Below, piece by piece: positions 7,958 to 19,047 of a stretch of 28,824 nucleotides of DNA. Made by a program: the position numbers and the translations under genes. The stretch is taken from the IMG/VR virus record IMGVR_UViG_3300020457_000062, positions 1 through 28,824 of that record. One strand, written 5' to 3'. Numbering within the stretch: position 1 is the first letter of the stretch; every line of letters begins with the position of its first letter. A model generated the notes under the pieces. That model searched no databases. It was given only the letters and a program-made list of their open reading frames with translations, and was not told the origin of the DNA. Source of the DNA: a virus.

Positions 7958-8469
7958 AATAAATCCCTCATAGTTTCAGGTTCAACTGGATGAGTCTGAT
8001 ATACAAGACTGTATCTCATAGGAGCATCCCTTAAAGGTGGACGTGCACCGTGCCATAGCTCACTAGTAAATTTTACCATCCTTCCGAACTTTGGCACAAT
8101 ACTCTTAACAATCTCTCCATCTTCTAGGAAGATTGTTTCTCCTCCCATACCTGCGTGCCAGTCAGGATTACAATAGATCATATACGTGATGCCCTGTGAA
8201 CTATGTGAATCCGTGTGTGGTTTAGGACAGTCCATATATGTGAATGCATTGTATAAGCATCTACGTACTTTAGGATTACCAATTAATTTTAACCACTTCT
8301 CTGCAATAGGTTCAAACTCACGATACTCCAAATCAAATACTCTACCAAGACTAGGTACCTTATTACCAAAGGCATCACCTAATTTTTCCCATTGGGTATA
8401 TGCTTCGAAGTACTGATACAGTTCCCATACATCAGTGAACTCAAATAGATCGTCAGTATACTCAATCAT
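7954..8469 (-). CDS. 2OG-Fe(II) oxygenase, prolyl-4-hydroxylase type
   Basis: A 171-residue Fe(II)/2-oxoglutarate dioxygenase. The iron triad is visible: H85 and D87 in PHTDSHSS, and H140 in LWHGARPP. R152 in MRYSLVYQ is the expected 2-oxoglutarate-binding Arg. The HxD form places it in the P4H-like group, unlike the four other oxygenases in this window, which have HxH. Its stop overlaps the dam TTG start and its start overlaps the stop of the next oxygenase gene upstream. Substrate unknown; protein proline or nucleic acid are candidates. Confidence 0.88.
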   Translation of the reverse strand: MIEYTDDLFEFTDVWELYQYFEAYTQWEKLGDAFGNKVPSLGRVFDLEYREFEPIAEKWLKLIGNPKVRRCLYNAFTYMDCPKPHTDSHSSQGITYMIYCNPDWHAGMGGETIFLEDGEIVKSIVPKFGRMVKFTSELWHGARPPLRDAPMRYSLVYQTHPVEPETMRDLF

Positions 8470-9155
8470 AATGCCATCTGTGGTCCGTGTCCATAACCAA
8501 TGTCTTCTTCACCGTGTCCTCTTCTTCTTAACTCATCATCTTGTACCAACTTACAGTTAATCATATTCTGTCCATATGGTCCTTGATTAATAGGACCAGT
8601 TGGAAATGCATTGAATGAAATATTTGCACGTGGGAAGTCAGCAAAATGTGGTGCTGTAAAATGTACTAACCAACTTGGAAATATTACTAGGGTACCTGGT
8701 TTATATACAGGTGCTTCTACAGCGTTCTCATATACTGCTGAGATTATTTCTAACTGATTATATGATCTTGCGTGCACAGGGTCTTGGAAGAGCGTAGGAT
8801 ACCCATCTGTGAGGCAGTAGGTGCCACTGTAGTATGACATAGGATGTCTGTGTGGTTGATGGCATCCACCACTGTTAGGGAGCGATACAACCCCCCAAGC
8901 AAGACTGATCTCAAACTTACCCCACATTTCAAACTGTTGATCTTTCTTAACTTCATCTAAACATTGATCAATCCATTTAAAAGTATTTTTAAATTGTGGT
9001 AAGCAATGTAAATTGCCTTGTGTAGTCTGTACAAGATTAGGTAAATTAAAAGCTCCTCTCTCAATCGGATCTAAAGCGTCAAGAGTTTCTTCTACTAACT
9101 CAGGACTACTCTCAAATGTAAAGAGTTCTACAGGAAAGATGGGATGCTTTTTCAT
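8466..9155 (-). CDS. Putative 2OG-Fe(II) oxygenase (PF13759 type)
   Basis: A 229-residue protein. The core matches the PF13759-like pattern: PHRHPMSYYSGTYCLT with H102/H104 as likely iron ligands, then a GTLVIFPSWLVHFTAP strand with H165, and RANISFNAFP with R176 as likely 2-oxoglutarate contact. The ATG at 9155 forms an ATGA overlap with the methyltransferase stop; a GTG five codons upstream is less likely. Adjacent to a P4H-type oxygenase and a methyltransferase. Substrate unknown. Confidence 0.82.
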   Translation of the reverse strand: MKKHPIFPVELFTFESSPELVEETLDALDPIERGAFNLPNLVQTTQGNLHCLPQFKNTFKWIDQCLDEVKKDQQFEMWGKFEISLAWGVVSLPNSGGCHQPHRHPMSYYSGTYCLTDGYPTLFQDPVHARSYNQLEIISAVYENAVEAPVYKPGTLVIFPSWLVHFTAPHFADFPRANISFNAFPTGPINQGPYGQNMINCKLVQDDELRRRGHGEEDIGYGHGPQMAL

Positions 9156-9724
9156 TTCCTCCAAACACACATTGAATCGTATACACTCATATGTTGAGTG
9201 ATATTATTTTGTTCTCTAAATTCTGCTACTGCTCTCTGAATAAGATGTGATTTATAATCGTGACCACATAACAATCCACCATATTTAATCTTAGGATACC
9301 AATCATTTAATTCTTTAAGTGCTTGTTCATATGTCATCCAAGCATCCATAAAAATAAAATCAAAATGTTCGTCAGGAAATGTGATAGCTAAATCCTCTAT
9401 GTTACCTTTGATAATTGTTGATCTATCTTCTTCACCAGAGAATCTAATATGATGATGTGCCATAAATTCAAAGATCTCCATCTCTGCAAGATCAGTAGAG
9501 TTGGAAGGACCAGGTTCATTATCTTCTCTTAAGTAATCTGTATAAGGTTCCCAGTTATCAATACCAGTAAGGTGTTTAATATTAGGACAAGCTTGTAACA
9601 AAGTACAAAAACTTTGTGCACGATCTACCCCTAGTTCGAGACCAATAAGATTATCACCGTGCATACCAATAAGATGCACAACAGATCGTACATCCGTAAG
9701 AGAGTTTTTAAAGTCATAGTTCAT
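9152..9724 (-). CDS. Class I SAM-dependent methyltransferase
   Basis: A 190-residue protein. Motif I is LIGLELGVDRAQSF (about 26-39), motif II TGIDNWEPY (about 53-61) and motif IV HFDFIFMDAWMTYEQ (near 120-134). GGLLCGHDYKSHL follows. This resembles the Methyltransf_24 group that acts on small molecules, sugars or natural products, more than DNA methyltransferases. Its start overlaps the gp44 stop (ATGA) and its stop overlaps the oxygenase downstream. Target unknown; cotranslation with oxygenases suggests a shared modification task. Confidence 0.85.
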   Translation of the reverse strand: MNYDFKNSLTDVRSVVHLIGMHGDNLIGLELGVDRAQSFCTLLQACPNIKHLTGIDNWEPYTDYLREDNEPGPSNSTDLAEMEIFEFMAHHHIRFSGEEDRSTIIKGNIEDLAITFPDEHFDFIFMDAWMTYEQALKELNDWYPKIKYGGLLCGHDYKSHLIQRAVAEFREQNNITQHMSVYDSMCVWRK

Positions 9725-10656
9725 TTAAACTGACACCTCATCATAAGTTCTGTCATACAAGCAACTAAATTAATCTCTTGATCTGCTACGAATGCTGCCT
9801 TGTATTGGTACTCACCAATAACAAGAACTGCTTCAGGAATAGATTGAGATTGCAAATAATTATATAACGAATCATATAACTTTCTCATAATCTGAGTTGG
9901 TTCACTATCTAGGTTCTGAACCACCCATTTTTTCATATTGGTAAACTCTTTGTTCTTAAGATATCCTACAAGATCTTGCAACTTAGTATCTGTTACAGCA
10001 GCAAGTACACCTGTATCGATCTTACCAATAGAACTATATCTCTGTAACTCATTAAGAGTTCTTCTAAAGTCAGGGAAATACTTCTGAACTAATGCTACTA
10101 ATACTTTTGGTTCTGCTTCTACCTTCTGCTCTGTAAGGATATCTTGGATCCTCTTAAAGAACTGAGCAGCAAGTACCTGCTTCTCCTTACCATTGATACT
10201 AAAGTCTACAACTGAACAACGTGAATGTAATGGTTCAATTATTCTGTTCTTGTAATTGCACGTAAATATGAACCTACAGTTCGAGGAGAATTCCTCGATA
10301 GTAGCTCGTAACAATAACTGTACGTCATTTGTGGTGTTGTCTGCTTCATCGATGATGATGATCTTGGCACCACCCACGAGGGAAACAGTTGATGCAAAGT
10401 TTTTCGCTTGGTTTCTAACTGTGTCGAGGAATCTTCCTTCATCTGATCCGTTGATGACATAATAATCTGCTCCTAATTCTTCACACAATGCCTTAGCAAC
10501 TGTGGTCTTACCTATACCTGGTGGACCTGACAATAATAGATTTGGAATCTTTTTGTTTGCTACAAATTTCTGTAGAACTGTTTTGATGTTATCAGGAAGA
10601 ATACAATCCTCGATCTTACGAGGACGGTACTGTTCACACCATAGAAAATCAGACAT
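9721..10656 (-). CDS. 44: Sliding clamp loader large subunit (AAA+ ATPase)
   Basis: A 311-residue gp44. Walker A GPPGIGKTT (44-52), Walker B IIIDEAD (100-106) and the sensor/Arg-finger SRC (145-147) are intact. The N-terminus LWCEQYRPRKIEDCILP is the classical RFC-type start. Four gp44 subunits and one gp62 load the gp45 clamp using ATP. The start overlaps the upstream oxygenase stop by 8 nt. In T4, gp44 and gp62 are adjacent; here 2.6 kb of modification genes lie between them. Confidence 0.96.
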   Translation of the reverse strand: MSDFLWCEQYRPRKIEDCILPDNIKTVLQKFVANKKIPNLLLSGPPGIGKTTVAKALCEELGADYYVINGSDEGRFLDTVRNQAKNFASTVSLVGGAKIIIIDEADNTTNDVQLLLRATIEEFSSNCRFIFTCNYKNRIIEPLHSRCSVVDFSINGKEKQVLAAQFFKRIQDILTEQKVEAEPKVLVALVQKYFPDFRRTLNELQRYSSIGKIDTGVLAAVTDTKLQDLVGYLKNKEFTNMKKWVVQNLDSEPTQIMRKLYDSLYNYLQSQSIPEAVLVIGEYQYKAAFVADQEINLVACMTELMMRCQFK

Positions 10657-11218
10657 AGATCGACTCAGGGGATTGCATAATATTAAATGAGAATATAATT
10701 CTATCCTCTGCAGCAGCGTGTGGCAACGACTGATGCATACATTGTGATGGGAAGAAGATTATATCACCCTCTTCACATTTTGGAATCTTCTCGTCAATAA
10801 ATCCAGACCAAGGATCTGGAAATGGTGAGAAGAAACAAGTTGGTTTATGTGCTCTACCCAACTGTGCATAGAACACTGCTGAGTAACCTATAACACCGTG
10901 TGTATGTACAGGATGCATTTGGTTAGCACTATATCTCTGACACCAAGAACTCAATACCTGTGAACCAGGATTCTCTTGAGCAAAGAATTCTAATGGTCCT
11001 CTAAGAACTTCCATTAGATCCATATGATATGGAGGTTGCTCACCTCTAGTGAAGTACCTATGGAAATCACTATAGAAATGTTCTAGGTTACAGTCAGGAT
11101 CATCCCAGTTAATCGAAGATAAAAAATCCCTCTTAACATTTTGCCAGTCAGGTACGTGACATATAAGACACGGTAGTCTGAACAAATCTGCTTGGAGGGA
11201 TACAAATGTTGGGATCAT
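10649..11218 (-). CDS. Putative 2OG-Fe(II) oxygenase (PF13759 type)
   Basis: A 189-residue protein. HPVHTHGVIGYSAVFYAQL holds the likely iron ligands H105/H107. GDIIFFPSQCMHQSLP holds H162, and DRIIFSFN has R173 for 2-oxoglutarate. It is wedged between gp45 and gp44, overlapping both (ATGA at its start). The family is abundant in T4-like cyanophages, with unknown substrates. All catalytic positions appear present, so it is likely active. Confidence 0.82.
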   Translation of the reverse strand: MIPTFVSLQADLFRLPCLICHVPDWQNVKRDFLSSINWDDPDCNLEHFYSDFHRYFTRGEQPPYHMDLMEVLRGPLEFFAQENPGSQVLSSWCQRYSANQMHPVHTHGVIGYSAVFYAQLGRAHKPTCFFSPFPDPWSGFIDEKIPKCEEGDIIFFPSQCMHQSLPHAAAEDRIIFSFNIMQSPESIYV

Positions 11219-12405: not shown

Positions 12406-13491
12406 TCAGTTTGGTTGATCGGTCAAGTCATTATCTGAGATATTAAATTCAGCATCGATCTTGTCATATAATTCCAAGAATGCTTGCTTAGTCTCATCAT
12501 CAAATCTGTTGATGCTGAACTGGATAGCATCTTCTTTAGAACCGAAGATCTCAAATGCCTTAACGATGTGAACCAACCTACGAGTGGAGATCACCTCATC
12601 AATTCCTCCATCAGCGAAGGTCTTACGGATGATCTGTGCCCAGTCAGCAAGACGTGCACAGAAGTCTGAATCAGCACATTGCTTGTTCAGGATTTTAACT
12701 TCTATCGCTGGTGATGGATACTCTTGCTCAAGAGTAATAGCGAATCTCTCAAGGAACGCTTCGTTGAGCACGTTAGTCCCGATGAATCTACCATCGTCAG
12801 AACCCTTACCCTTAGTATTCGCTGTCGCAATAACATTGAACCCATCAGCAGGTCTTACGTACTTGCCGATTTTCTTTAGGAAGACTCCTTTACCTTCAAG
12901 GATTGACTGTAAGCATAGAATCTTATTAGATGCTAGATCAATCTCGTCTAGAAGGAGGATAGCTCCCCTTTCCAGTGCTTCGATAACTGGTCCATTATGC
13001 CATACAGTGCTACCATTATTAAGACGGAACCCACCAATAAGGTCATCTTCGTCTGTTTCAACAGTAATGTTAACTCTAATCAACTCTCTATTTAGACTTG
13101 ACGCTGCTTGCTCCACACCAAATGTTTTACCGTTACCAGATAGACCAGTGATGAAAGTAGGATAGAACTTCTTACTCTTGATAATCTTCTTAACAGAGTT
13201 AAAGTTTCCGAATGGAACATATAGTTCATCCTTAGAAGGTACTAGAGATGCCTTTGGATCTGACTTAACGATTTGCTTTTCAAAAACCTCACGTGCTTCT
13301 TCTATGGTTAGGTTCCACTTACCTATGGACTTCTTGTACTGCTTAAGTCTCTTTTTGATTGTTGCGTATGAGCACTTGAACTCGTCTGCTGCTTTCAATA
13401 ATTCTTGTGTAGAAACTTCAGTCCCGAAGTTGTTTGTAAGGTACTCAACAACTCCTTCAGTTGTTACAGGGATTTCAGTTTGGAATGCCAT
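12406..13491 (-). CDS. cobS: CobS-like MoxR-family AAA+ ATPase
   Basis: A 361-residue AAA+ ATPase. The first 60 residues look like a helix-turn-helix (SYATIKKRLKQYKK). Walker A is GLSGNGKT (116-123) and Walker B AILLLDEID (177-185). A sensor-1 region FNVIATANTKGKGSDDGRF and NEAFLERF follow. Cyanophage versions are annotated CobS, the ATPase subunit of aerobic cobaltochelatase. The family also includes MoxR chaperones that work with VWA proteins. The adjacent upstream gene encodes exactly such a VWA partner. No CobN-like subunit is visible, so cobalt insertion is uncertain. It is transcribed after its own terminator/-10 region. Confidence 0.9.
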   Translation of the reverse strand: MAFQTEIPVTTEGVVEYLTNNFGTEVSTQELLKAADEFKCSYATIKKRLKQYKKSIGKWNLTIEEAREVFEKQIVKSDPKASLVPSKDELYVPFGNFNSVKKIIKSKKFYPTFITGLSGNGKTFGVEQAASSLNRELIRVNITVETDEDDLIGGFRLNNGSTVWHNGPVIEALERGAILLLDEIDLASNKILCLQSILEGKGVFLKKIGKYVRPADGFNVIATANTKGKGSDDGRFIGTNVLNEAFLERFAITLEQEYPSPAIEVKILNKQCADSDFCARLADWAQIIRKTFADGGIDEVISTRRLVHIVKAFEIFGSKEDAIQFSINRFDDETKQAFLELYDKIDAEFNISDNDLTDQPN

Positions 13492-13538: not shown

Positions 13539-13558
13539 AAGGGGTCTTGCGACCCCTT
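13539..13558 (-). terminator. Rho-independent terminator after cobT-like gene
   Basis: On the minus strand an 8-bp perfect stem (AAGGGGTC/GACCCCTT) encloses a GCAA loop and leads into a T run at 13535-13540. It lies 10 nt after the stop codon of the VWA protein and separates it from cobS. Confidence 0.85.
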
Positions 13559-13567
13559 AGTAGACAC

Positions 13568-15778
13568 TTATCCAACTGTCTCAGCGAATGATGCGAGCAT
13601 CTTTTTATTGGATGCTTTGTTCTTGAACATCTTCTTGAACGCTGCACCAACTTGTGCCTTTGTTGCATCTTCCTTAAGATCATCTAGTGGATTGTCATCT
13701 ACTAATGCAGTTGTTGGCATAACAAATAACTTGTCATAAGGTGACTCAGTTACTTCATAGAACTTCTGCTTTCTGAATCTCTTGATCGCTTCCTCGCTGA
13801 ACTCATTAATGAATCCCATATACTGAATCATTCTGAAGTATCCACTAGTGTCACGTGGTGTGATTAGACGGAACCCTAGCATTTGTACTTGTCTGAATGA
13901 ATCCTTAAGGTTCTGGATGAATACATTTGTCTGCTCTAGAGGGTTATCCTTACGAGCATATACTCTTCCAGTCTTACGATCTCTTAACTGGCAACGTCCG
14001 TTGAATGAGTTACGGAATAGGTTCTCACCCATTATTGCTGATCTCTTGCAGTTGTAAGAAGGTTGTGCTGCTTCACCGTCAGTTAGGATTGATAGAGATA
14101 TTTTCTCTGCACCAGTTTGCTTGATGAACTGTGGAAGTACTGAGTGCATTGCTGCAATTGCTTCCATCAATGGTGTACCTGATAGACCTAAGATTGCAGG
14201 ACATCCCATAGAGTATACACGAGACCAAGTTTTTGGTTGAGTGCTGTTAACACCAGCATTTCTCCAGAGTGCTAAAGCAGATCTATCTCTCTCTTTCTTG
14301 TTTCCTTCTGAAGTAAGCATTTCAAGTAGACCGAATCCTTGATTGAAAGAGATCTTACCCAACTTCTCTTCGAACTTATCTACTGTTCTATCATAGTAGT
14401 TGGCAGAATAGATGCTATTGCTGAATGCATATACTCTATAAGGGATACCAACTTTCTGGCAGAACCAAGTTAGTTGAAGAACTTGCTTTACTGTATCGAA
14501 TAAGCAATTGCTCATTGAACCAGACCAGTCTAGTAAGAAGACCATAGCGTGATTCTTTCCTTCAGGTAAGTTAGTTACCTTCTTAAAGAGATCCTCATTG
14601 TACTTGTAAGTGTGTAATCTAGCAGTATCAAGAACACCTGTACGACTTGTAGTAGCACGAGCATAACTAGATGCTGCTTTGCGACACTCAAACTCTTTAA
14701 CAAGATAGTTAACTTCTTTCTGTGATGACTTAAAGAACTCTCTATAGTCTGACTCACTCTTCTCAAGGTCTGCTTTCTCAACATTGTATCTCCAGAGTTG
14801 ACTGTCATCACCATCGATAGGCATCTCAACCTTATATCTCTCTTCAGACATCTGAAGTATTTCCTTCCAAGAGATGATTAACTTATCAGGATCAACTTTA
14901 TCAATCTCAACATACTCAGTCTCGAATCCACCGTGCTTGACATACTCTTTAACTTTGTCTGTAAAGATCTTATCTGTCTGTGCTTCTAATGGATTACCAC
15001 CTTCTACACCACCTTCAGTTGTAGTAGGTATCTCTGCATCCTGAGTTACATCACCACCCTCTGCTTCAGTATCATCACCATCATCACCTGATTGACCATC
15101 AGTATCTGCATCTATTGGTGGTTCCTGTGAGAAAGGATCTTGTGAATCATCACCTAGATCTGGATTTGTACCACCCATCTGAGGCATTTCGAATGCTGAA
15201 TCTGCTTCCTCTTCTGCTTCTTCCTTCTGCTTCTTCTCATACTCTTCCTTCATAAAGTCGAAGATCTGTTTAGAAACGTTCTCTACATCCTCGAATGTTT
15301 CACACTGTCCTACTGCATCTACAAATACTTGCTCTTCGTCTGTGAATGCGATGTACTGGAAGTTACCGATCTTGTACTGTAGGTTGATCTTATCAATTAA
15401 AGAGAACTTATCAACGTTTTCTTTTGATTCAAAGAAATCTTGCTCACTTAACTCCTTATAACCTGCGAAGAATGTCTTAGGAAGACCTTGATATCTACGC
15501 TTCATTAACTTCTCGATACGAGCATCTTCTACTACATTCAAGAATGACTGAGGAACTTTACCATACTCCCACTCTCTTGGAGTGTATAGAGCGTGTCCTA
15601 CTTCGTGACTGACGAGCATATCATATACTGCTTCAGTTGCCTGATCCCAGATTGGAAGAGTTAGTACACGTCTCTCCACGTCAAACTGAGCAGTCTCACA
15701 ATTTCTGTGCTCGATGATTAGATCCTCTGTTGCTAGTAGTTTAGCAAGGGTTCCTTTGACTTCTCTGTTGACTGTCAT
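13568..15778 (-). CDS. CobT-like VWA protein with HExxH metallopeptidase-type site
   Basis: A 736-residue protein. The N-terminal part has SHEVGHALYTP (H58-E59...H62) and NVVEDARIEK (E84), a zincin-like arrangement. Residues 183-262 are a very acidic low-complexity linker. The C-terminal half holds GVLDTARL (381-388), as in CobT, and a von Willebrand A domain with intact MIDAS DWSGS (417-421), then SGTPLMEAI and SILTDGEA. It pairs with the AAA+ gene downstream, as in CobS/CobT and MoxR/VWA systems. A GAAGG ribosome binding site precedes the ATG. It is flanked by terminators on both sides, so it may be a separately controlled unit. Peptidase activity is inferred only from the motif. Confidence 0.87.
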   Translation of the reverse strand: MTVNREVKGTLAKLLATEDLIIEHRNCETAQFDVERRVLTLPIWDQATEAVYDMLVSHEVGHALYTPREWEYGKVPQSFLNVVEDARIEKLMKRRYQGLPKTFFAGYKELSEQDFFESKENVDKFSLIDKINLQYKIGNFQYIAFTDEEQVFVDAVGQCETFEDVENVSKQIFDFMKEEYEKKQKEEAEEEADSAFEMPQMGGTNPDLGDDSQDPFSQEPPIDADTDGQSGDDGDDTEAEGGDVTQDAEIPTTTEGGVEGGNPLEAQTDKIFTDKVKEYVKHGGFETEYVEIDKVDPDKLIISWKEILQMSEERYKVEMPIDGDDSQLWRYNVEKADLEKSESDYREFFKSSQKEVNYLVKEFECRKAASSYARATTSRTGVLDTARLHTYKYNEDLFKKVTNLPEGKNHAMVFLLDWSGSMSNCLFDTVKQVLQLTWFCQKVGIPYRVYAFSNSIYSANYYDRTVDKFEEKLGKISFNQGFGLLEMLTSEGNKKERDRSALALWRNAGVNSTQPKTWSRVYSMGCPAILGLSGTPLMEAIAAMHSVLPQFIKQTGAEKISLSILTDGEAAQPSYNCKRSAIMGENLFRNSFNGRCQLRDRKTGRVYARKDNPLEQTNVFIQNLKDSFRQVQMLGFRLITPRDTSGYFRMIQYMGFINEFSEEAIKRFRKQKFYEVTESPYDKLFVMPTTALVDDNPLDDLKEDATKAQVGAAFKKMFKNKASNKKMLASFAETVG

Positions 15779-15950
15779 TTAATTCCTTCGTTTGTATACA
15801 CATATTATAAGACCCCCGATGGCGGTCGGAGGTCTTTAGTAGACACTTTATCAACTGGTTGCGTCTGTCTCTTGCACTCTTAAGTGCACGTGGTTTTAAT
15901 TTACGTTTGGGTGGCTTCCCAGAATTGTGTTGCCAGTTTGGAGTTGTCAT
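15741..15950 (-). CDS. Small basic protein whose frame reads through a terminator
   Basis: A frame of 69 residues starting at an ATG that overlaps the upstream oxygenase stop (ATGA), so the start is credible. The first 35 residues are basic (KPPKRKLKPRALKSARDRR), suggesting nucleic-acid contact. The frame then continues through a strong terminator and 38 nt into the cobT-like gene. Tandem stops (TGATAA) lie in another frame just before the terminator, so a single-base indel or sequencing error near 15850-15880 may have altered the true C-terminus. Confidence 0.5.
   Translation of the reverse strand: MTTPNWQHNSGKPPKRKLKPRALKSARDRRNQLIKCLLKTSDRHRGSYNMCIQTKELNDSQQRSQRNPC
15804..15809 (-). promoter_or_regulatory. 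Possible -10 element upstream of cobT-like gene
   Basis: TATAAT on the minus strand directly follows the terminator stem and lies 26 nt before the cobT-like start. No -35 match is seen 17 nt upstream, where the hairpin sits. The layout matches that before cobS. Confidence 0.4.
15809..15836 (-). terminator. Terminator-like hairpin between small basic gene and cobT-like gene
   Basis: An 11-bp stem (AAGACCTCCGA/TCGGGGGTCTT, one T-G pair) encloses a 6-nt loop. The downstream minus-strand sequence is TTATAAT rather than a long T run, so termination may be partial. It is preceded by GTGTCTACTAA, which also precedes the cobT-like terminator. Confidence 0.65.
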
Positions 15951-16486
15951 TTTGCATTGAAGGCTATGGATACTCTAGGAGTATCTATACGATTTTTCTC
16001 AGTTTTATGCTCTAACCAAGATGGGAATAAGACGAGAGTCCTTGGTGTAGCAGGGAAGTGGCGACCTTCCTCTGTACCCCATAGGCACATCTTAGAATGA
16101 GGATTCGGATTGATGAATACAATCCCTCCCATCTCAGGAACACAGTCCTTATGATAGTATACACCAGATACATTGAAACCAGCGTGGGTGTGTGCAATTT
16201 GGAAACTGTCCTTCGGTCCCCTATTCAGCCAAGAGTTCGCTATCGTACAGGTAGGATCTATATGTGCCAATGACTTTTCACAAAATGCTCTCAAGTGGGG
16301 TAAGTTATATTTTTGAAACAACTGGAGATCGTTTATTCCAGTATGAGACCCATAGAGGATCTCTTCCTTGGCACCTACACTCAGGTGAGATAGGATGTCT
16401 GGATCATCAGGAATTCCATCGATCTCCTCGTCTATTCTCTCGTCACTATGATTAAACACATATAGATGTGTGGGGAAAATTTCCAT
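15947..16486 (-). CDS. Putative 2OG-Fe(II) oxygenase (PF13759 type)
   Basis: A 179-residue protein from the ATG at 16486; a TTG at 16510 would add 8 residues and overlap the upstream gene by 13 nt. SWLNRGPKDSFQIAHTHAGF carries iron ligands H99/H101. LFPSWLEHKTEKN has H160, and TPRVSIAFNAK has R171. This is the clearest PF13759 match of the window. It follows a small membrane protein and another oxygenase of the same type in one operon with gp46. Substrate unknown. Confidence 0.83.
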   Translation of the reverse strand: MEIFPTHLYVFNHSDERIDEEIDGIPDDPDILSHLSVGAKEEILYGSHTGINDLQLFQKYNLPHLRAFCEKSLAHIDPTCTIANSWLNRGPKDSFQIAHTHAGFNVSGVYYHKDCVPEMGGIVFINPNPHSKMCLWGTEEGRHFPATPRTLVLFPSWLEHKTEKNRIDTPRVSIAFNAK

Positions 16487-16497
16487 ATCGAATTGAA

Positions 16498-16761
16498 TTA
16501 ACCTTGCCAAATTAAATCAGGCATTTGCTGTGCACCTGGTCTGTTAACAATCAATAGGATGAAATATCCAACAAACCATATGATGTTGAACAACCAAGCT
16601 TGTCTCCAGAAATACTTTCTAACTGACATAGACCTAAGAATCTCAGGTGCTTTATCTTGTGCTCTGAATATCTGCTCAATTATAAATGCAATGATTGTTG
16701 CTATCACTAGAGGATAGAATACAAAATTTGCAAAAGACATTATACCAATTAGGAATGTCAT
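16498..16761 (-). CDS. Small two-pass membrane protein
   Basis: An 87-residue protein with two hydrophobic helices near residues 3-30 (FLIGIMSFANFVFYPLVIAT) and 53-74 (WLFNIIWFVGYFILLIVN), separated by a charged loop. Its start overlaps the upstream oxygenase stop (ATGA). It sits between two PF13759-type oxygenase genes, so a joint role is possible. No family recognised. Confidence 0.7.
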   Translation of the reverse strand: MTFLIGIMSFANFVFYPLVIATIIAFIIEQIFRAQDKAPEILRSMSVRKYFWRQAWLFNIIWFVGYFILLIVNRPGAQQMPDLIWQG

Positions 16762-17336
16762 CTGGGTCTCGGTAAGTTAGGGAATCTTTGTAGTCTAACA
16801 CAGTCAGGAATACTCATCATAAAGGAAACCGACCATCTCTCGTCGTTCTCTTCATTCATACGAACCTCGTGGTCTTGGTAACCTGGCCAAAAGTATAGGT
16901 CACCTTCACGTGGTATCTGACAATGTGTTGTTGGCCAGTAAGGTCTTATTCTCCAAGTAGTTTCTACTGCGTGTGCAGGATGATAGAGATAAAGATCGCC
17001 AGTATTGCCAGGTGGCACCTGTAAATAATAGGTTCCTGCAACATCACACTCTGCGTGGTTGTGACGCATCTGGAACCCACCTTTAGGATTGATGTTAACC
17101 CAACAGTGGGTAACCTTAAGTTCTGGATCAAATAGTTCTTGTTTTGATAACAGTAACTCATTAAACTCAGGATACTCTTTATGTATCTGATCATTAGTAT
17201 GGATGGTGCTATAACCAGTACCATAAAATTTATTCTCTTCAGTACAAAACTCATCACGACGTGCTAATAATTCTTTCCTGAATTGACAGTGATTCTCATA
17301 TTCATTATTGCTTGTATAAAATGGGATGTCAAACAT
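16758..17336 (-). CDS. Putative 2OG-Fe(II) oxygenase (PF13759 type)
   Basis: A 192-residue protein. I chose the ATG at 17336, which overlaps the gp46 stop by 8 nt and has AAAGG upstream; a longer frame reaches 17390 but runs 62 nt into gp46. VNINPKGGFQMRHNHAECDV carries H92/H94. PGYQDHEVRM has H156, and ERWSVSFMMS has R167. The family pattern is complete. Substrate unknown. Confidence 0.8.
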   Translation of the reverse strand: MFDIPFYTSNNEYENHCQFRKELLARRDEFCTEENKFYGTGYSTIHTNDQIHKEYPEFNELLLSKQELFDPELKVTHCWVNINPKGGFQMRHNHAECDVAGTYYLQVPPGNTGDLYLYHPAHAVETTWRIRPYWPTTHCQIPREGDLYFWPGYQDHEVRMNEENDERWSVSFMMSIPDCVRLQRFPNLPRPR

Positions 17337-19047
17337 CTTCAAATACCTTTGAGAACTCATTAACCTTTTCAAACTTGATAGTTCTATCAAACTTGTCTAG
17401 GAGTACATCACCCTTATGGGAGATGATAAACATATTAGTATCAGTATATAACTCTTTAAGAATCTTAAGTAATTCTTCTGTTGCTGTATTATCTAGTGAA
17501 CTATCAAATACTTCATCAAGTATTAATAGATTTGTAATGATAGAGTTCTTTAATTTAGCAACGTGTCTCCAAGTAAAGAGAAGTGATAGGTCAATCTTCT
17601 GCTTCTCACCTTCAGAGAAGGATGAGTAAGAGAACTTATCACGATGACGTGACTTAATAACCTCACCAAACTCTTCATTCAAAGTAAAATTAATATAGGT
17701 ATCCATTGATGTAAGATATCTATTGATCCTCTGATTGATGATAGGAATATACTTAGAAATAATTTTTGCCTTGATACCACCATCCTTTAAAAGATTACTG
17801 ACTAACTTATAGTCCTGTGCTTCTTTACTGACACCTGAACAAGCAGTCTCCTTATCATTATAATCTTGTTGTAATTTCTCCAGTAGTAACTGTTCCTTAT
17901 TAAGGTCTGATTCATCAGTTAAATTTTTGATCTGAGATAAAATATCAGTATTCTGTTTCATCAACTTCTGTTCTTCGTTTACTAAACGACGAATTTCAAA
18001 TTGATATTCAGTTACATTAGAACTATCCTCTCTTAATTTCTCAATCGTTTGAAGTGTCTTCTGTACTTGTTTCTCTAGAGTACCTGCTGCTTCATTTAAT
18101 TCATCAACCTTTTCGTTTAAAGTTTTAACTTTGACCTGTCTAAATTTCTCTTCAATCTCCTGAGTACATACAGGACAAGATGAATTATCGTCAAAGAATT
18201 TAATATCTTTAACAACTCTCTCCTGTCTTCCGTTCAACTTACTCAGTATACCAAAGGTCTTTTTATATTCTTCTTCCTTTGTCTTTAACTTTGTAGTGCT
18301 GTTAACGAGTTTGTTAATCTTCTTTTGAAACTCTTCGATCTCTTCTTTTAGAGTCTTCATTCGTTCTTCATTGTTATCAAACCTTTCCTTCTGATGAGCA
18401 ATTCTCTCATCATTAACGATAGTAAGTTTTGATAATGTCTTCTCCTGTGCTTTGATAGCAGCAGTAGCCATTTCTAGTTCGTGCTTGCAATCACGAAGTA
18501 TCTCATTGTTATCCTTTACACGCTCCTTCAGGAGCATATTCATATGGGAAAAGATTTGTATGTCCAATAGATCTTCAATAACTTCTCTTCTATGACTAGC
18601 ACCTAATTGCATAAAGGGAACAAACGTACTACTCCCTAGTATGACCACCTGTGTAAATGACTTAAAGTTTAATTTTAATATACTTTGCTCAAGGTATTTC
18701 TGGTAGTCTCTATTAGCAGCATCCTGATCTATCAGAGTATCATTACGATACATCTCAAATACAGCTGGTTTAATTCCACGTACTACCTTATAATCTATTG
18801 TACCTACTTTAAATTCTATCTCAACTAAAGTATCTCTCTCGTTGATTGTATTAACTAACTGTGACTTTGTGATCTTCCTGAAAGGTTTGTTAAACAATCC
18901 AAAGCACAGAGCATCCAACATAGTAGATTTACCTGCACCGTTAGATCCAATAACAAGAGTGGAACTAGTTTGGGTGAAATTAATCTCAGTGAATTGGTTG
19001 CCTGTACTTAAGAAGTTTCTCCAACGAATCTTCTCAAATGTGATCAT
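17329..19047 (-). CDS. 46: Recombination endonuclease subunit, Rad50/SbcC-like
   Basis: A 572-residue gp46. Walker A is GSNGAGKST (34-42). A long coiled coil spans about 180-440 with a zinc-hook CPVC at 291-294. The ABC signature is SSFSEGEKQKIDLSLL and Walker B is LLILDEVFDSSLD. A late His-switch is IISHKGD. With gp47 it resects DNA ends for recombination-dependent replication and, in T4, degrades host DNA. All catalytic motifs are intact. The 85-residue DUF3110-like gene separates it from gp47. Confidence 0.96.
   Translation of the reverse strand: MITFEKIRWRNFLSTGNQFTEINFTQTSSTLVIGSNGAGKSTMLDALCFGLFNKPFRKITKSQLVNTINERDTLVEIEFKVGTIDYKVVRGIKPAVFEMYRNDTLIDQDAANRDYQKYLEQSILKLNFKSFTQVVILGSSTFVPFMQLGASHRREVIEDLLDIQIFSHMNMLLKERVKDNNEILRDCKHELEMATAAIKAQEKTLSKLTIVNDERIAHQKERFDNNEERMKTLKEEIEEFQKKINKLVNSTTKLKTKEEEYKKTFGILSKLNGRQERVVKDIKFFDDNSSCPVCTQEIEEKFRQVKVKTLNEKVDELNEAAGTLEKQVQKTLQTIEKLREDSSNVTEYQFEIRRLVNEEQKLMKQNTDILSQIKNLTDESDLNKEQLLLEKLQQDYNDKETACSGVSKEAQDYKLVSNLLKDGGIKAKIISKYIPIINQRINRYLTSMDTYINFTLNEEFGEVIKSRHRDKFSYSSFSEGEKQKIDLSLLFTWRHVAKLKNSIITNLLILDEVFDSSLDNTATEELLKILKELYTDTNMFIISHKGDVLLDKFDRTIKFEKVNEFSKVFEDV

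Follow-up and report, generated by a model that had tools for sequence, protein, structure and literature searches.

A CobT-like phage protein with an invariant HExxH motif and its AAA+ partner: a candidate remodelling machine rather than a cobalt chelatase

A T4-like marine myovirus encodes a CobT-like protein that joins an N-terminal head with the motif of a zincin metallopeptidase to a C-terminal von Willebrand factor A (VWA) domain, and the gene of a CobS-like AAA+ ATPase lies beside it. The reading towards which we lean, with modest confidence, is that the pair remodels target proteins by AAA+ action close to complexes of replication and recombination, that its metallopeptidase head is probably active, and that it is not a cobalt chelatase.

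The function of such pairs has been described in two ways. In cyanophages, cobT was said to have been 'mistakenly annotated as a peptidase', and a role in cobalamin production was suggested (Liu 2021, PMC8651126). In jumbo phages, a MoxR-vWA pair with an N-terminal metallopeptidase was reported and a role in virion assembly was suggested (Iyer 2021, PMC7824862). Of the 'auxiliary metabolic genes' known from marine cyanophages, cobS is one of the most familiar, and it is taken to serve a vitamin B12 function. Should the pair be a protease-linked remodelling machine, the B12 reading would not hold for a core gene of viruses that are very abundant. The conflict between the labels 'peptidase' and 'CobT' would be settled, the N-terminal domain of CobT would gain an evolutionary origin, and a function common to phages and major resistance plasmids would come into view.

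The gene pair and its family

The window, meaning the whole stretch of DNA analysed, is an entire IMG/VR record of 28,824 bases. The pair and the element between its genes are as follows.

13568..15778, minus strand: zincin-VWA protein, CobT-like, PHROG 459 'peptidase' (open reading frame; phrog_459 profile match; tblastn)
12406..13491, minus strand: CobS-like MoxR-type AAA+ ATPase, 361 aa (AAA_5 E=3e-19; phrog_249 E=1e-133)
13539..13558, minus strand: terminator-like hairpin and U-run between both genes (MFE -19.5 kcal/mol for 46 nt, z = -5.6)

The zincin-VWA gene occupies 13568-15778 in the list of open reading frames and encodes 736 aa from an ATG start. The initial annotation had the gene and its 736 residues right, but its span of 13559-15778 ran 9 bases beyond the stop and omitted the strand, which is minus. 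It had also placed a CobS-like ATPase directly after the VWA gene, and this is correct, the gap being 76 bp. The protein matches phrog_459 over residues 3-735, i.e., its full length (E=1e-231), and has relatives in 463 isolate phage records by tblastn, every one of them less than 60% identical to it. Pfam and NCBIfam yielded no credible match for it, and neither did PDB sequence searches with both alignments.

The pairing is conserved. A CobS homologue lies downstream in 78 of the 81 related loci with room for one, and upstream in two of the three exceptions. With a MoxR-type AAA+ gene adjacent to that of a VWA protein with a metal ion-dependent adhesion site (MIDAS), the locus is a MoxR AAA+/VWA pair. 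Within the CobS-like protein, residues 1-75 have a mean conservation of 0.51 as against 0.79 in the ATPase core; the matching region in the phage-plasmid CMS-2020a contains a Cys/His cluster.

Because terminator-like hairpins flank the zincin-VWA gene, its transcription may be independent of that of the CobS-like gene. The second hairpin lies just before this gene, at 15809-15836 on the minus strand. The sequence GTGTCTACTAA precedes each hairpin (13557-13567 and 15836-15846), a repeat that is by itself not beyond chance.

A host origin of the gene was considered and rejected: one of 96 cyanobacterial genomes has a match, and the contig in question (L086) has phage gene order and is a binned phage contig. 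Many other relatives from 'bacterial' or 'archaeal' assemblies (L084-L105) also stand in T4-like gene order and look like binned phage contigs. The AAA+ relatives of Staphylococcus phage K, Microbacterium phage Pumpernickel and Acinetobacter phage Ab15 were set aside, the zincin-VWA partner being absent nearby. The CobS-like ATPase of Staphylococcus phage K (L143) has no VWA partner within 4 kb, and is a structural protein in the annotation of a related phage.

The zincin-like head

15224..15778, minus strand: N-terminal domain, residues 1-185, predicted minigluzincin-like (AlphaFold2; PDB fold search; viral library)
15593..15607, minus strand: HEVGH, residues 58-62, with candidate zinc ligands H58 and H62 and candidate catalytic E59 (invariant in 81/81)
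15512..15538, minus strand: N81-V-V-E84-D85-A-R87-I-E89, with candidate third ligand E84 (invariant in 81/81; NxxED kept in distant relatives)

The architecture first described for the 736-residue protein, HEVGH and E84 followed by an acidic linker and a VWA domain with a MIDAS, was confirmed in every part. H58, E59, H62, N81, E84, D85, R87 and E89 are invariant across 81 aligned sequences at about 40% identity to the window protein. HExxH occurs in 0.5% of 20,000 shuffles of the protein, and HExxH followed by NxxED in 0.005% (1/20,000); the combined motif exceeds chance. Every relative with a complete site has HExxH and a downstream NxxE, both in the Pelagibacter-phage group (30 loci) and in the SSU5-type phage-plasmid group (43 loci), the site being cut at contig ends in the remaining loci of the two groups. 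HExxH and NxxED are also found in all 22 relatives with a readable open reading frame from genome contigs. Motif and invariance are thus established at the level of sequence, and H58, H62 and E84 would be expected to bind zinc.

The predicted structure suggests a zincin-like head. Residues 1-185 were modelled by AlphaFold2 with a pLDDT of 84.5 and a pTM of 0.81, as a helix and three strands followed by two further helices. HExxH sits on the first of these (49-65) and E84 on the next (77-95), which is the gluzincin arrangement on both counts; whether H58, H62 and E84 converge was assessed from topology and fold matches. In the PDB fold search, ranks 1-9 are all gluzincins (ArdC, selecase, leukotriene A4 hydrolase), with a best E of only 0.19; the selecase match has a probability of 0.98 and a TM of 0.56 on the selecase-length scale. 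In the viral library, the protein's own family comes first, followed by CobT-annotated proteins, including those of haloarchaeal viruses, and then by SprT-like, metalloprotease and IrrE proteins, the viral SprT and metalloprotease matches being weak (E about 0.1). The initial proposal of a protease-like head agrees with the sequence and, at these weak E-values, with the predicted fold, which is not of a kind that would speak against it.

Linker, VWA domain and a candidate pore finger

14984..15211, minus strand: acidic disordered linker, residues 190-265 (32% D+E, 0% K+R; pLDDT <50 over 194-262)
14579..14644, minus strand: conserved RTGVLDxxxLHTYKYNEDLFKK, residues 379-400, before the VWA core; candidate pore finger as in NorD
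13859..14566, minus strand: VWA domain, residues about 405-640 (MIDAS invariant; fold matches NorD VWA and Rea1 MIDAS)

The full-length model has a pLDDT of 72, and its best PDB matches are the VWA domain of NorD in the NorQD complex and the MIDAS domain of Rea1; the VWA fold is supported by this prediction. The MIDAS is formed by D417-W-S-G-S421, and D417, S419, S421, T535 and D567 are invariant in the 81-sequence alignment. In the segment 379-400, a candidate for the pore finger, the invariant residues are G381, L383, L388, Y391, K392, D396, F398 and K400.

The likeness to NorD bears on a different function, that of a metal-cofactor chaperone, in which the head would bind metal and the pair would load an enzyme of the phage that needs it, for instance ribonucleotide reductase or the 2OG-Fe(II) oxygenases. 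The VWA fold is closest to that of NorD, whose complex inserts iron (PMC13036017), and four oxygenase genes of PHROG 81 are present in the window. However, the catalytic Glu of HExxH is kept, for which a pure carrier would have no need, and the oxygenases are not seen beside the pair in the sampled plasmids or distant phages. We regard this function as quite unlikely, and 2OG oxygenases were rejected as a family-wide target since none was seen beside the pair on plasmids.

Relation to chromosomal CobT

The head is homologous to the N-terminal domain of CobT by profile comparison. A profile of the diverse family aligns with this domain of 28 chromosomal CobT proteins with a probability of 95.4% and E=1.8e-8 in hhalign (95-97% across comparisons). 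The score of 59.1 compares with at most 17.7 among 100 controls with shuffled columns and with 14.1 in a reversed control. The marine group profile is in turn linked to the distant mobile-element family with a probability of 99.1% (E=6.5e-19). The match to chromosomal CobT is strong only with the diverse profile; it is weak with the narrow marine profile (1-6%) and with a profile limited to T4-like, OC and HCTV-1 members (6%). Because of this homology, 'CobT-like' and 'peptidase-like' are not alternatives, and each label is partly true. Several mobile-element relatives pass the Pfam cut-off for CobT (98 bits for CMS-2020a vs 26.1), while the window protein matches neither PF06213 nor PF11775.

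The state of the site differs between the two kinds of protein. It had been considered initially that all bacterial CobT proteins might share the motif, which is untrue: the 28 aligned chromosomal sequences lack HExxH and mostly read H-H-D-x-x-x-H and E-Q-A-R-V-E. HExxH and NxxED are intact in the CobT-like proteins of CMS-2020a (an E. coli phage-plasmid), the IncC plasmid pAR060302, a Vibrio plasmid, Rhizobium phage RHEph10, Roseobacter phage CRP-810 and a Desulfobacteraceae locus. In the haloarchaeal virus HCTV-1, of a family described by Liu (PMC8651126), the site reads HECGH and NAAEDGAIE. The ICP2 protein keeps HExxH without NxxED. Since the branches that diverge most, those of archaeal viruses among them, carry the intact site, its loss is likelier than its repeated gain. 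Descent of chromosomal CobT from such a protein, through decay of the site, would form part of the best explanation. A cellular counterpart in DUF2201 (PF13203) was also sought; it gave no match and is nearly absent from the Alphaproteobacteria searched.

Both histidines have been lost, with the AAA+ partner kept, in an Acinetobacter plasmid (L198 2980-4902), Pseudomonas phage nickie (L202 2974-5058) and Stenotrophomonas phage BUCTxx99 (L203 2992-4977), where the site reads DQEVAK, DSEISK and DREVST. Because these three relatives keep the pair without either histidine, cleavage is dispensable in some lineages, and remodelling without cutting suffices there. Together with the chromosomal CobT proteins that lack HExxH, they raise the question of whether the fold might serve for binding throughout, the pair being a pure remodelling chaperone with a pseudo-protease head. 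For the window protein, this is rather improbable: the eight residues of the site show no variation across the marine phages, at about 40% identity. Its metallopeptidase head is probably active.

The cobalamin question

The suspicion that the label 'cobalamin' is misleading for this phage pair is borne out by the CobS score, the lack of CobN and the surrounding replication and recombination genes. Against the CobS model TIGR01650, the AAA+ protein scores 66 bits where the cut-off is 558.55, which places it outside the CobS equivalog. As first noted, no CobN is visible in the window, a 28.8-kb fragment that is the entire record; CobN is also absent from 20 further element records (19 and the phage-plasmid PhiR41_1). 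PhiR41_1 carries the AAA+/zincin-VWA pair, and its host is E. coli K-12. E. coli K-12 is not known to encode CobN. For B12 synthesis in E. coli, the entire pathway had to be added, CobNST included (PMC6249242). Because CobN is missing from the 20 element records and hosts such as E. coli lack the corrin pathway, cobalt chelation by the mobile-element pair is unlikely.

In the published form of the chelatase reading, viral CobST acts with host CobN to raise cobalamin output (Liu 2021, PMC8651126). The homology of the head to chromosomal CobT agrees with this, as do the close mobile relatives that exceed the Pfam CobT cut-offs. Marine cyanobacterial hosts likely have a CobN/ChlH-type protein, given a control match in Synechococcus elongatus, and this leaves the reading some probability in such hosts. 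However, the CobS score, the missing Pfam CobT match of the window protein, the 20 records without CobN and the presence of the pair in an E. coli K-12 phage-plasmid all stand against it. Furthermore, mobile members retain the zincin site and true CobT has lost it, where chelatase function should favour the opposite. Overall, we hold a cobaltochelatase to be quite unlikely here.

Genomic surroundings

The window contains genes for gp45, gp44, gp46, gp47, a UvsW-type helicase and UvsY, and, on the structural side, for the major capsid protein, scaffold, gp21 protease and portal. In marine phages, the pair lies between gp46/gp47 and gp45. DNA polymerase III alpha adjoins it in CMS-2020a, PhiR41_1, RHEph10, nickie and BUCTxx99. 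The neighbours are DNA polymerase, UvsX and primase-helicase in DLP6, ssb-bet-exonuclease on the IncC plasmid, exonuclease, RadC and primase on the Vibrio plasmid, primase and helicase in ICP2, and Hef nuclease and SprT in HCTV-1. These surroundings point to replication and recombination more than to virion maturation or vitamin B12, on the understanding that early regions of phages often contain replication genes and that the neighbourhood reading is a descriptive listing.

Other genes also recur nearby. The SprT of HCTV-1 (record annotation; L141 33698-34357) is a few genes from the AAA+/VWA pair. A DUF3150 gene, possibly that of a third partner, is found near the zincin-VWA gene on plasmids and at the Desulfobacteraceae locus (L197, L199, L200, L106). 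The four oxygenase genes of the window fall within 9 kb (8466-9170, 10649-11218, 15947-16510 and 16758-17390), with two immediately preceding the zincin-VWA gene on its upstream side. The main text of papers on cyanophage transcription and virion proteomes held no usable data for the zincin-VWA gene.

A role in virion assembly has been proposed for jumbo phages, where the pair would fold or assemble particles and the head would trim structural proteins (Iyer 2021, PMC7824862). There is an archaeal-virus precedent for a MoxR-VWA pair in tail assembly (PMC7824862), and T4-like phages conserve the pair as they would a core function. A general virion role is nevertheless disfavoured, because related zincin-VWA proteins are found on conjugative IncC and Vibrio plasmids, which make no virion. 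The position of the genes, outside the capsid and tail cluster, also argues against it, the window already has a head protease in gp21, and PHROGs does not class the zincin-VWA protein as structural. Virion assembly is thus a rather unlikely function.

A proposed machine

In the proposed remodelling machine, the CobS-like ATPase would form a ring on which the VWA domain docks, its MIDAS gripping the target. A flexible acidic linker would bear the minigluzincin-like head, with a putative zinc site of H58, H62 and E84 and E59 as the catalytic residue. ATP-driven motion would then present or pull the gripped protein against the head, which would probably cut it. As targets, protein components of nucleoprotein complexes where DNA is replicated and recombined would be the most likely, and these could belong to the element or to the host.

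The gene pairing, the absence of CobN and the identity of the neighbouring genes can be read from the sequences; zinc binding, proteolysis, the motor mechanism and the targets are what we infer from them. In favour of the machine are the invariance of the motif, the gluzincin-like predicted fold, the NorD-like VWA domain, the conserved pairing and the recurrence in distant mobile elements. Points against it are the best PDB fold E, the three histidine-less relatives and the hairpin between both genes. It is the NorQD-like order of parts, together with the analogy to Wss1-Cdc48, that favours an AAA+-driven protease or remodeller of nucleoprotein complexes.

A bolder version, which we consider unlikely though worth stating, is that an AAA+-powered minigluzincin family, present in phages, phage-plasmids, conjugative plasmids and archaeal viruses, removes or processes proteins where DNA is replicated and recombined. 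It would be a prokaryotic equivalent of Cdc48-Wss1/Spartan, and CobT would be a descendant whose catalytic site has been lost.

Comparison with known systems

The family is already known as PHROG 459, and the architecture has been published (Iyer 2021, PMC7824862). What is new here is the description of a mobile-element family with an intact zincin site, in a domain that is homologous to that of CobT and decayed there, which joins both labels. The PHROG 459 'peptidase' and its CobS neighbour (PHROG 249) in T4-like cyanophages are the same gene pair, with a match over the full length; nothing essential differs, although the window protein is divergent at less than 60% identity to every isolate. 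CobS is a cyanophage core gene (PMC3037559). Group 2.2 of the jumbo phages has, by description, the same architecture and type of partner, CobT and CobS being unmentioned in that proposal of virion assembly (Iyer 2021, PMC7824862).

The CobT of the aerobic cobaltochelatase (PF06213/PF11775) has the same domain order and, by profile comparison, a homologous N-terminal domain; it differs in having HHDxxxH in place of HExxH, and its partners are CobS and CobN. The CobT-like proteins of SSU5-type phage-plasmids and IncC plasmids have intact HExxH and NxxED and a VWA domain, with an AAA+ partner in the phage-plasmids. The plasmid versions differ in the DUF3150 gene nearby, and on the IncC plasmid an AAA+ gene was not seen within 4.5 kb.

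NorQD, an AAA+/VWA system for iron insertion, has the VWA fold, the linker and the two-gene logic in common with the phage pair. In the published description, the VWA domain extends a finger into the AAA+ pore and the C-terminus touches the ring, while ATP-driven rotation stretches the linker to the N-terminal domain (PMC13036017). The phage protein follows the order of NorD as given there, namely head, acidic linker, segment 379-400, VWA domain and conserved C-terminus, and differs in its apparently catalytic head. The N-terminal domain of NorD is not described there as having a protease site, and the target is nitric oxide reductase (PMC13036017).

Yeast Wss1, which was modelled as closest to minigluzincins, has the AAA+ ATPase Cdc48 as its partner in acting on protein conjugates bound to DNA (PMC4559962). 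Wss1-Cdc48 and Spartan/SprT have in common with the phage pair a minigluzincin-like protease and an AAA+ ATPase directed at DNA-bound proteins (PMC4559962). They differ in the eukaryotic SUMO system and in having no MoxR/VWA pair, so that the likeness is one of analogy.
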